NCBI RefSeq assembly: GCF_900215295.1
Contig: NZ_OCMF01000002.1
Coordinates: 186,001-250,000 of the forward strand
Direction of reading: 5' to 3'
DNA: 64,000 bases
Source of the DNA: Salinimicrobium sediminis
GTDB lineage: Bacteria > Bacteroidota > Bacteroidia > Flavobacteriales > Flavobacteriaceae
Shown: positions 2,515-4,264 of the stretch, piece by piece
How the letters are laid out: the number at the start of each line of letters is the position of its first letter
Position numbering within the stretch: position 1 is the first letter of the stretch
The notes under the pieces: model-generated
Told to the model about the DNA's origin: nothing
Databases searched by the model: none
Seen by the model: only the letters and a program-made list of their open reading frames with translations
Program-made: the position numbers and the translations under genes

Positions 2515-2822
2515 ATTATTTTTTGAATTTTTTAAGGAGTTGAATGAGTAGTAAAAACCATACTTTGACTCCTGCTTAAAGCTCTTTTGTAAATTTAACC
2601 GATTAATATATTTTCAAAGAACGGGGATACCGTAATTAGCGGAAGTTTAGGAAACTTTTAATAGTACATTTGGATATGAAGGAGAAAGAGAAAAGGCTGA
2701 ACCGACACTTGAAAATCTGTTTAAAATGATATAGACTTAACATTGTTGAAACAGAAGGTCTCTCCTAATACTCTGGTAAAAATACAGTTATGACGAGCAG
2801 GGAATTAATTTATTCTTTTTGC

Positions 2823-2852
2823 TTGTCTTTTTTAAAAACCTCATTATATTTG
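2823..2852 (+). promoter_or_regulatory. Promoter of tRNA-Arg (TTG-N19-TATATTTG)
   Basis: TTG at 2823-2825 and TATATTTG at 2845-2852 are separated by 19 bases, matching the Bacteroidota -33/-7 consensus. Transcription would begin near 2859, six bases before the mature tRNA. The rest of the gene-free stretch from 2515 to 2864 shows no gene or convincing structure. Confidence 0.8.
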
Positions 2853-2864
2853 CACCGCTTTAAT

Positions 2865-2938
2865 GGTCGCGTAGCTCAGTTGGATAGAGCATCTGCCTTC
2901 TAAGCAGACGGTCAGAGGTTCGAATCCTCTCGCGATCA
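2865..2938 (+). tRNA. tRNA-Arg (anticodon UCU)
   Basis: A 74-base cloverleaf: acceptor GGTCGCG pairs with CGCGATC (one G-T wobble), D arm GTAGCTCAGTTGGATAGAGC, anticodon arm TCTGC-CTTCTAA-GCAGA with anticodon TCT, and T arm CAGAGGTTCGAATCCTCT. The discriminator is A and CCA is not encoded, as usual in Bacteroidota. This is the only complete tRNA in the window. Its 3' half from the D arm onward is repeated twice downstream. Confidence 0.97.
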
Positions 2939-2940
2939 CA

Positions 2941-2969
2941 AAAACCCCTCTTTTCCGGAGGGGTTTTTT
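2941..2969 (+). terminator. Rho-independent terminator after tRNA-Arg (copy 1)
   Basis: AAAACCCCTC pairs with GAGGGGTTTT across a 7-base loop and runs into a T tract. It begins three bases after the tRNA end and only about 15 bases before the GIY-YIG start codon, so the nuclease gene lacks room for its own standard promoter and probably depends on read-through. Confidence 0.9.
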
Positions 2970-2983
2970 GTTATGTAACGGTT

Positions 2984-3238
2984 ATGATTTTTCACACCTA
3001 CATCCTTTACTCTGCAAATTTAAACAAGTACTATGTTGGGCATACAGGTTCTTCCCTGGACGAAAGGCTGAAAAAACACCTTTCCGATCATAGAGGTTTT
3101 ACTGCAAAAACTAAAGACTGGAAAATTGTTTATACTGAAAAATATGCAACTAAAAGTGCGGCTTACAAACGTGAGTTAGAAATTAAAGCCAGAAAATCGC
3201 AAAAGTATATCGAACAACTCGTTCACTCAAGAGAGTAG
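2984..3238 (+). CDS. Small GIY-YIG nuclease, array copy 1
   Basis: Eighty-four residues, the length of the stand-alone small GIY-YIG (UPF0213/Slx1-like) nuclease domain. The first motif appears as YIL with YYVG ten residues later; the conserved arginine lies in SLDERLKKH, and a conserved glutamate may be in AAYKRELEIK. The ATG follows the tRNA terminator by about 15 bases. The TAG stop at 3236-3238 lies inside the beginning of a tRNA 3'-half copy. It differs from copy 2 at three positions only (T/I, N/D and the final E/G). A DNA-cleaving role is inferred from the fold; a role as a tRNA-gene-associated selfish element is inferred from the arrangement. Confidence 0.85.
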   Translation: MIFHTYILYSANLNKYYVGHTGSSLDERLKKHLSDHRGFTAKTKDWKIVYTEKYATKSAAYKRELEIKARKSQKYIEQLVHSRE

Positions 3239-3291
3239 AGCATCCCGCTCCTTGAGCGGGACGGTCAGAGGTTCGAATCCTCTCGCGATCA
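3236..3291 (+). pseudogene. tRNA-Arg 3'-half copy, array copy 1
   Basis: From TAGAGC to CGCGATCA this matches the 3' half of tRNA-Arg, with the variable loop, T arm and 3' acceptor strand identical. The 5' acceptor strand and 5' D strand are missing. The anticodon arm is replaced by a G+C-rich hairpin (CCCGCTC, CTT, GAGCGGG) and is two bases longer than in the real tRNA, so a working tRNA is unlikely. Confidence 0.85.
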
Positions 3292-3294
3292 CAG

Positions 3295-3322
3295 AAACCC
3301 CTCTTTTCCGGAGGGGTTTTTT
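3295..3322 (+). terminator. Terminator, array copy 2
   Basis: Same hairpin as at 2941-2969: AACCCCTC pairs with GAGGGGTT across TTTTCCG and is followed by T residues. It is carried within the 353-base repeat. Confidence 0.88.
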
Positions 3323-3336
3323 GTTATATAACAGTT

Positions 3337-3591
3337 ATGATTTTTCACATCTACATCCTTTACTCAGCAAATTTAGACAAGTACTATGTTGGGCATACAG
3401 GTTCTTCCCTTGACGAAAGGTTGAAAAAACATCTTTCCGACCATAGAGGTTTTACTGCAAAAACTAAAGACTGGAAAATTGTTTATACTGAAAAATATGC
3501 AACTAAAAGTGCGGCTTACAAACGTGAGTTAGAAATTAAAGCCAGAAAATCGCAAAAGTATATCGAACAACTCGTTCACTCGAGAGGGTAG
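3337..3591 (+). CDS. Small GIY-YIG nuclease, array copy 2
   Basis: An almost identical second copy of the 84-residue GIY-YIG protein, starting exactly 353 bases after the first. Both the frame and the motif residues (YIL, YYVG, SLDERL) are intact, so neither copy has decayed, which points either to recent duplication or to selection. The stop TAG at 3589-3591 again lies in the start of a tRNA 3'-half copy. It sits between two terminators, so transcription depends on read-through or on an unseen promoter. Selfish insertion, or a nuclease tied to tRNA processing, are alternatives that the sequence cannot decide. Confidence 0.85.
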   Translation: MIFHIYILYSANLDKYYVGHTGSSLDERLKKHLSDHRGFTAKTKDWKIVYTEKYATKSAAYKRELEIKARKSQKYIEQLVHSRG

Positions 3592-3644
3592 AGCATCCCG
3601 CTCCTGGAGCGGGACGGTCAGAGGTTCGAATCCTCTCGCGATCA
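3589..3644 (+). pseudogene. tRNA-Arg 3'-half copy, array copy 2
   Basis: Second partial copy of the tRNA 3' half, with the T arm and the 3' acceptor strand intact. The anticodon arm is CCCGCTCC, T, GGAGCGGG: it differs from the first copy by one base in the loop, which extends the pairing. There is no 5' half. Confidence 0.85.
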
Positions 3645-3647
3645 CAG

Positions 3648-3675
3648 AAACCCCTCTTTTTCAGAGGGGTTTTTT
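3648..3675 (+). terminator. Terminator, array copy 3
   Basis: AAACCCCTC pairs with GAGGGGTTT across TTTTTCA, followed by a T run. The loop-side bases differ from copies 1 and 2, but the stem is kept. Confidence 0.85.
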
Positions 3676-3802
3676 GTTATAAAACAGTTATGACTTTTCA
3701 CATCAAATTTATTAAAGAGCTAATCCAACCTTAAAATTTTTTATTGTACCCATAGTTCAAATCCCATACTTTTGGATATTTTTGTCGACTTTAAGAACAG
3801 GT

Positions 3803-4264
3803 ATGCTGGCAGAATTAATACAGGCGATGTTATGGAGCATTTCTCCTTTTGGAGAAGCTAAAGTGGGAATACCGTATGCCATTTTAAACGGGGTAAATCC
3901 TGTTGTTGCTTTTATTTTTTGCTTTATAGCAAACGTGCTGGTTTTTCCTGTGATGTATTTTTTCCTCCATTTTATCAACAAACACTTTCTGAAATGGAGG
4001 TTCTATAAGTCCAATGCAATTAAGGTGGCAAAAAGAGCAAAAAAGGGTGCGGGAAAAGGAGTTTTAAAATATGGTTTTTGGGGCCTGATCCTTTTTGTAA
4101 TGATCCCGATTCCCGGAACCGGAGTTTATGCAGGGACTATAGCCGGTTACTTATTCAGAATTCCTAAAAGACTTGCTTTTACGGCAAACACCATTGGTAT
4201 TTTCTTTTCCTGTGTCTTTATCTGGATAGCAACTATCATTGCTTCAGGAGAACCGGTTTTTTAA
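3803..4264 (+). CDS. Small multi-drug export family membrane protein (COG2426-like)
   Basis: About 153 residues with four or five hydrophobic segments. Motifs typical of the small multidrug export family (PF06695) are visible: SPFGEAKVGIPYA near the N-terminus, a lysine-rich cytoplasmic loop, and MIPIPGTGVYAGTIAGYLF in the second half. I chose the ATG at 3803; a TTG at 3782 would add seven residues, but the sequence before it gives no support. Despite the family name, substrates are poorly established. It follows the tRNA/GIY-YIG array and appears to be transcribed alone. Confidence 0.8.
   Translation: MLAELIQAMLWSISPFGEAKVGIPYAILNGVNPVVAFIFCFIANVLVFPVMYFFLHFINKHFLKWRFYKSNAIKVAKRAKKGAGKGVLKYGFWGLILFVMIPIPGTGVYAGTIAGYLFRIPKRLAFTANTIGIFFSCVFIWIATIIASGEPVF

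Follow-up and report, generated by a model that had tools for sequence, protein, structure and literature searches.

Tandem GIY-YIG nuclease units behind a tRNA-Arg gene of Salinimicrobium sediminis: a likely target-restoring selfish element in tRNA genes of Bacteroidota

Small nuclease genes accompanied by palindromes are known from the REP/RAYT systems, in which the RAYTs are HuH tyrosine transposases. The UPF0213 proteins of the GIY-YIG group are small and conserved, with a role that is unknown or related to repair. In fungal mitochondria (atp6 of Allomyces; atp6, atp9, cox2 and nad3 of Glomus), the mobile ORFs (mORFs) place a free-standing endonuclease gene in a conserved gene; a copy of the gene end of foreign origin keeps that gene working, and the native end is displaced downstream, where it matches the sequences of relatives (PMC3630166). 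SegB of the T-even phages is a free-standing GIY-YIG homing endonuclease linked to tRNA genes, and it promotes the amplification of tRNA-containing segments (PMC13096335). A literature search, of partial coverage, found no account of bacterial tRNA-linked GIY-YIG elements.

The locus studied here lies in a window (the whole stretch of DNA that was analysed) of 64,000 nucleotides from the genome of S. sediminis (G000; 3.48 Mb, 8 contigs). The initial annotation had described a tRNA-Arg gene followed by repeated units of a nuclease gene and a tRNA remnant with a period of 353 bases; this was confirmed with ARAGORN and by a direct repeat, a 90-nt segment present three times (at 2907, 3260 and 3613; spacing, 353 and 353). 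The features are as follows.

2865..2939, + strand: intact tRNA-Arg(TCT) (ARAGORN; Rfam RF00005, 73 bits)
2941..2969, + strand: terminator-like hairpin and T run of the AAACCCCTC..GAGGGGTTTTTT type (from the sequence; differs from the flank of the empty congener G010)
2984..3238, + strand: GIY-YIG nuclease of unit 1, 84 aa (intact ORF; dN 0.015 and dS 0.127 against unit 2)
3231..3242, + strand: D-arm-like part of the tRNA remnant, overlapping the nuclease stop codon (sequence, repeat comparison and Rfam scan)
3243..3261, + strand: palindrome replacing the anticodon arm, unit 1 (sequence)
3262..3292, + strand: displaced tRNA-Arg 3' part, identical to the sequence of the intact tRNA (sequence and repeat comparison)
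3293..3322, + strand: terminator, copy 2 (repeat comparison and flank comparison)
3337..3591, + strand: GIY-YIG nuclease of unit 2, 84 aa (intact ORF)
3596..3614, + strand: palindrome replacing the anticodon arm, unit 2 (sequence)
3615..3645, + strand: displaced tRNA-Arg 3' part, copy 2 (sequence and repeat comparison)
3646..3675, + strand: terminator, copy 3 (repeat comparison and flank comparison)
3690..3704, + strand: third nuclease gene, truncated, first 15 bases only (sequence)

The nuclease starts given previously (2984, 3337 and 3690) are correct, the third copy matching for 15 bases and then diverging; the two frames described as intact (2984-3238 and 3337-3591) are so, and their stop codons, both TAG, do fall inside the tRNA remnant, in its D-arm part. 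Repeat copies 1 and 2 are 97% identical over 300 nt. The reading of the remnant as a tRNA 3' half was right only in part: the 3' part and a partial D arm are present, but the anticodon arm is a palindrome, which had been overlooked. Agreement of the remnants with the tRNA is confined to the sequence 3' of the anticodon arm and to some of the D arm, and the anticodon arm itself is swapped for TCCCGCTCCTTGAGCGGGA and TCCCGCTCCTGGAGCGGGA, which as exact patterns occur nowhere else in G000. Because of this palindrome, an exact duplication of the tRNA was ruled out. A group I intron was also rejected; the Rfam scan of 2700-4000 gave no intron family, and the tRNA-Arg gene is uninterrupted. No recombinase was found in the window units, of which the nucleases are the only ORFs of substance. 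The flank type is identical for all three copies, so that the native and the foreign end cannot be distinguished in the window itself.

The window protein matched PF01541 (E 8e-15, above the cut-off) and no other domain; NCBIfam gave no match. The Y, R, H and E columns are invariant, and we take them to be the catalytic residues (the nuclease activity itself is inferred). The nearest solved relatives are the UPF0213 proteins 1zg2 and 1ywl. A comparison with 50,697 phage records gave no match at E 1e-3, and carriage by a phage or plasmid was dismissed, there being no match at E 1e-3 in either collection. The dN/dS ratio was 0.05-0.34 in all 10 chosen nuclease pairs, and by this measure the nuclease is under purifying selection.

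Within G000, seven matches to the window protein were obtained at four loci, all of which adjoin tRNA genes (Arg, Phe, Asn and Leu); the tRNA-Phe locus has three tandem units, and the Leu and Asn arrays have one unit without an intact nuclease gene. The four loci have a common plan (tRNA, terminator, nuclease, palindrome, tRNA 3' end), with the palindrome in the anticodon arm (Arg), in the T loop (Phe), in the variable region (Asn) or beside the T arm (Leu). There are 14 PF01541 matches in this genome, uvrC included, and three small, more distant GIY-YIG genes of another class (L201-L203) have no tRNA nearby. At a further locus (L039; G000:C6, ~373296), two units in tandem, each composed of terminator, palindrome and tRNA 3' end but lacking a nuclease gene, lie behind a tRNA-Thr gene and look like non-autonomous copies of the element. 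At L038 (G000:C6, ~19824) and L041 (G000:C8, ~178211), CCCGATAGCTATCGGG lies within a copy of a tRNA-Val 3' end and within the loop of another long hairpin, as if palindromes were inserting into hairpin loops.

PF01541 was present in 40 of 40 Flavobacteriaceae genomes. A match of any kind to the window protein was obtained in 20 of 40 genomes searched (its own genome included) and in 8 of the 12 of the genus; some of these matches belong to the other GIY-YIG class. The scan of genome contigs gave 290 stretches with relatives, of which the best 80 were kept. By their titles these 80 are from Bacteroidota, except for metagenome bins named Streptomyces griseus (L108) and Paraglaciecola arctica (L122). 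An ARAGORN call was found within 1 kb in 65/80, on the same strand in every case; among the remaining 15, the available sequence ends within 400 bp in nine and six had no ARAGORN call. Five of the 65 (L069, L076, L097, L115 and L129) have only a hairpin-bearing pseudo-tRNA, and an ordinary tRNA gene lies upstream, at a distance of at most 802 bp, in 60/80. In each of the other 20 relatives, a fragment of a tRNA lies no more than 400 bp from the nuclease (comparison with 105 tRNAs, the pseudo-tRNAs having been removed; the weakest matches were L120, E 0.006, and L128 and L090, E near 1e-4). As controls, the 4.2-kb regions of uvrC loci (14 of 20 listed places) had a tRNA in 0/14, and no tRNA match was obtained for 17 loci of the other class of small GIY-YIG genes. 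Among the matches listed, 100 small GIY-YIG matches with short open frames formed 86 clusters, and a tRNA lay within 500 bp of 21 of these, among them a single cluster (L215) of the other class. The association with different tRNA genes that the initial annotation proposed is thus borne out by the G000 loci, by the 60/80 relatives and by the 0/14 controls. Pseudo-tRNAs were called by ARAGORN as SeC, Glu, Phe, Stop, Ile or Cys tRNAs at L012, L030, L013, L031, L095, L097, L115, L121 and L129; hairpin-bearing remnants are a source of false tRNA annotation.

A remnant matching at least 22 of the last 28 nt of the local tRNA was found in 42 of 60 testable loci, and the match was 28/28 in 33. In 41 of these 42 loci the local tRNA beats every tRNA of another isotype (which reach 17-26), and in 40 of 42 it also beats tRNAs of the same isotype from other loci; the remnant therefore follows the local tRNA gene and not the isotype alone. 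That each remnant matches its upstream tRNA had been anticipated, and it holds to this extent: 18/60 loci showed no remnant of this kind within the 400 bp of downstream sequence that were examined; contig ends cut off some of these loci, and others have an additional palindrome in the T loop. Of 44 loci in which the sequence behind the last remnant could be compared with that behind the tRNA, the two are alike in 35 and unlike in nine; either allelic spread within a species or local duplication would give this majority pattern. Loci of the Arg/Val group have the junction between element and tRNA at the anticodon arm; elsewhere it involves the T loop, variable region or D loop. Among the matches listed, ~33 kb of other DNA (G007:C15, 217950-251614) and ~28 kb (G011:C45, 130409-159317) lie between an intact tRNA-Arg gene and tRNA-Arg remnants, perhaps as islands inserted beside the element. 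At the tRNA-Arg gene of G012 (L157), two more tandem copies of the tRNA-Arg 3' end were seen, each with a promoter-like stretch of the TTTGCA type; no nuclease was seen in the 550 bp read.

Tandem arrays of 2-5 units were present at 24 of the 80 loci, with 83-100% identity between units in most of them and less in L066 (61%) and L075 (54%). When the targets were placed as labels on the nuclease tree (121 proteins), 22 changes were counted, against a mean of 58.2 and a minimum of 51 in 200 shuffles; L097 was left unlabelled, its only tRNA call being a pseudo-tRNA. The Asn, Met, Leu, fMet and protein-gene lineages each form one side of a branch of the tree. On this tree, nuclease lineages track their target, with the reservations that the clustering by isotype owes part to vertical descent and near-copies and that resolution is poor (61 of the tree's 116 inner branches are open; the alignment consists of few columns).

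In Arg/Val/Pro-type loci the anticodon arm was replaced by a hairpin starting with TYCCG in 55 of 79 picks (41 distinct sequences), a rough lower count, as the hairpin finder sometimes picked the terminator. Pairs 1 and 3-5 of this hairpin are invariant, pair 6 is AT, CG, GC or TA, pair 7 is TA, CG or AT, and the inner pairs vary together. Because the same plan is found in Arg, Val and Pro remnants whatever the tRNA, the palindrome is regarded as a feature of the element. Its possible roles are all inferred: it may be the recognition site of the nuclease, a device by which recombinational deletion leaves a dead tRNA, or a block on the folding of the displaced half. In some displaced remnants (L065, L067, L107, L112, L116, L253 and L260), the T loop or its vicinity holds one more palindrome, such as the AGCCTGTnCCGAT..ATCGG type, as if dead tRNA halves were collecting palindromes.

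Mirror-image units, in which the nuclease lies upstream of the intact tRNA, were found at tRNA-Arg(ACG), Arg(TCG), Leu(CAA), Pro(GGG) and Pro(TGG) genes (L222, L234, L235, L236, L240, L258 and L261). In these units the nuclease is preceded by the displaced 5' half, whose palindrome lies in the D loop, anticodon arm or T arm, and is followed by a new 5' half; therefore, either end of a tRNA is replaceable. One nuclease lineage (11 of the 199 Flavobacteriaceae genomes searched, at E <= 1e-15) splits a protein gene exactly at the codons TGGAGF|IG in G053, G046, G079 and G061. The same lineage occurs in G194 with a similar but altered displaced motif, in G044 without a displaced end and in G078 at another location; more distant matches in G094 and G156 are, by reading, at tRNA-Arg genes. 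The interrupted gene is a dTDP-glucose 4,6-dehydratase gene in G053 and G194 (TIGR01181, above the cut-off) and an epimerase gene in G046, G079 and G061 (best NCBIfam model of the TviC type, below the cut-off; PF01370 in G046 and G061, the two of the three that were scanned). Across G053, G046, G079 and G061, the displaced and the working gene starts are identical at 33-35 of 45-46 positions. The candidate empty relatives for G053 (L312-L314) were uninformative, the DNA at the matches having no motif of the TGGAGF|IG type.

Which end is foreign could be read where an empty site was available. Behind the last displaced tRNA-Arg remnant of G011, the flank agrees with the terminator of the empty congener G010 at 36/42 positions, and this terminator type is common to G005 (35/42), G002 (37/42) and G006 (35/42); the stretch past this terminator in G011 is also common to G006 and G010. 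In contrast, agreement with G010 is only 26-27 of 51-53 positions for the sequences that flank the intact tRNA and the inner units of G011, and these flanks are of the AAACCCCTC type, as in the window. This test depends on the G010-type flanks (G010, G005, G002 and G006); in two further empty congeners, G003 and G009, the terminator is of another kind (24/46 and 24/54 against G010). No unit was seen in ~550 bp behind the tRNA-Arg genes of G005, G010, G003 and G009. For the protein gene, the epimerase gene is uninterrupted in G239, a congener of G061 and G238, and provides an empty site. The gene start of G239 agrees with the displaced start at 64/74 (G061) and 63/74 (G238) positions, against 50/76 (G061) and 52/85 (G238) for the working start; the gene body past the insertion agrees at 109/120 and 104/120, respectively, and alignment is poor over the next 300 nt upstream (182/344 and 190/344, gaps counted). 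The G011 and the G061/G238 cases indicate, as far as such alignments can, that the working end was carried in by the element and that the displaced end is native. The earlier suggestion that the tRNA end is restored on insertion is supported by these two comparisons, the second of which is in a protein gene. Between L317 and L319 (G061 and G238), the element is identical at 350/364 columns and the following gene stretch at only 869/1000 (columns with gaps), a contrast that hints at recent transfer or conversion.

We consider it likely that these units are selfish, target-restoring homing elements in the style of the fungal mitochondrial mobile ORFs. The reading of the initial annotation, a selfish element that targets tRNA genes, thereby gains support from the recurrence, the remnant matches and the foreign working ends. 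The anatomy, the recurrence, the tracking of targets, the foreign working end in two cases and the purifying selection are read from the sequences alone; cleavage, homing, mobility and the role of the palindrome are inferred. The only gene of the element would be the single-domain GIY-YIG nuclease. Placed inside a tRNA gene, the element would supply a substitute for whichever part it displaces; in the window this would be the tRNA-Arg 3' half with a terminator. The order after insertion would be the native 5' half joined to the element's 3' half (the working tRNA), the terminator, the nuclease, the palindrome and the dead native 3' half. The window tRNA-Arg (2865-2939) would thus consist of a host 5' half and an element-borne 3' half. 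The nuclease would break an unoccupied tRNA gene, and the break would be repaired from an occupied copy with the two tRNA halves as homology arms, by which the restoring end, the nuclease and the palindrome would be copied. Tandem arrays may arise from recutting or from unequal exchange between the repeats. Other lineages would restore the promoter and the 5' half (the mirror units), and one would hit sugar dehydratase/epimerase genes. Since a working tRNA is handed back, an element of ~350 bases in the tRNA genes of many Bacteroidota probably spreads without harm to its host. Immunity is the weak point of the homing model, as no device that shields the restored tRNA is visible: the working tRNA is an intact, unaltered target, so that the nuclease should cut the gene of its own host. 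Nor is it obvious how the sequence of a tRNA gene would be recognized, because there is no separate DNA-binding domain. Recutting is perhaps tolerated and may even drive the growth of arrays, as SegB promotes amplification in phage T6 (PMC13096335).

A second class of small GIY-YIG genes (REKQxKKW...NPxWxDL) shares an exact word of at least 12 nt between its 160-bp flanks in 38 of 52 loci; the controls gave 0/52 loci in shuffles and 0/84 control windows. Genes of this class with REP-like repeats, away from tRNAs, were seen in G000 and other Flavobacteriaceae (L202, L207, L213, L215, L227, L248, L254, L270, L277 and L280). By analogy only, the class is possibly a REP-partner nuclease comparable to the RAYTs.

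The explanation that we keep open as possible, though doubtful, is an element directed by structure: the nuclease would recognize hairpins, both its own palindrome and tRNA arms that are extruded when the DNA is single-stranded, and would move by exchange of hairpin for hairpin in the manner of RAYT/REP. It would account for the palindromes in the displaced half of several unrelated tRNA targets and for the TYCCG hairpin with covarying inner pairs in place of the anticodon arm (55/79 picks), and it suits a protein of a single small domain whose nearest solved relatives are UPF0213 proteins; the repeats common to both flanks of the second class (38/52), many of them palindromic by eye, also point this way. 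It does not account for the insertion in a protein gene without a tRNA-like target structure or for mirror units such as L235, in which the palindrome and the insertion point lie apart; moreover, no GIY-YIG enzyme is known to rejoin DNA.

An improbable origin is the ordinary tandem duplication of a resident nuclease gene together with the tRNA 3' end. The likeness of array units (83-100% in most of the 24 arrays; L066 and L075 lower) and the repeated flanks in 35/44 loci are what it would predict, and duplication does explain the growth of arrays once an element is in place; the many isotypes, the mirror architecture, the palindrome in the remnant and the protein-gene targets speak against it as the origin, and the working ends of foreign origin in G011 and G061/G238 already make it less likely. 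That the nuclease is a companion gene of tRNA operons beneficial to the host, for example in DNA repair or tRNA quality control, is very improbable: purifying selection and the constant place just behind the tRNA terminator would suit it, but its presence is patchy (20/40 genomes, 8/12 in the genus, with some matches of the other class), and there are broken copies (L016), arrays and targets that differ between lineages. Since tRNA 3' fragments are typical att sites, the remnants might also be scars of integrative islands inserted at tRNA 3' ends by a tyrosine recombinase, a reading suggested by the ~33 kb (G007) and ~28 kb (G011) between tRNA-Arg and remnant among the matches listed; it is very improbable, as the window units consist of one 84-aa ORF without a recombinase, the junctions are spread over the anticodon arm, D loop, T loop and 5' side, and protein genes are hit too.

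If the homing interpretation is true, a unit of ~350 bp parasitises essential tRNA genes harmlessly, tRNA genes of Bacteroidota can be chimeras with element-borne halves, and the gene-end-replacing strategy of fungal mitochondria exists also in bacteria; the question is then raised of how the restored gene avoids recutting. It accounts for some false tRNA calls ('tRNA-SeC' in L012 and L030) and for a group of short GIY-YIG genes whose role is unknown; there may be a link to the origin of REP-like palindromes in Bacteroidota. A broader proposal, on which we are evenly divided, is that such units are widespread undescribed bacterial parasites that enter essential genes at their most conserved points with a replacement part, and that few parasites encoding a mobility protein of their own are as small; tRNA genes would be their principal niche, since the halves of these genes are homology arms found everywhere, and the engine of GIY-YIG nuclease and palindrome would be common to the second, repeat-flanked class.

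In comparison with the known systems, the element pairs a small nuclease gene with palindromes as REP/RAYT does; unlike a RAYT, it encodes a GIY-YIG protein and is located in tRNA genes, with PF01541 as the only domain found and no HuH/Y1 domain. The window protein shares its fold family and size with the UPF0213 GIY-YIG proteins 1zg2 and 1ywl. Like SegB, the element is a free-standing GIY-YIG gene at tRNA genes; SegB is a phage gene, whereas the element lies in a bacterial genome and has no match in the phage collection at E 1e-3, and the element has both a restored gene end and a displaced half, neither of which is described for SegB in the passages of PMC13096335 that were consulted. The closest likeness in plan is with the mORFs (PMC3630166): a nuclease gene in a conserved gene, a foreign working end and a displaced native end. 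Unlike these, the element resides in bacterial chromosomes, belongs to the GIY-YIG family (LAGLIDADG in Glomus atp6), has mostly tRNA targets, restores 5' as well as 3' ends, carries a palindrome in the displaced part and has a unit of only ~300-400 bp. The strategy is not new in itself, since it is known from fungal mitochondria; what is new here is the hosts, the targets, both polarities and the extreme smallness.
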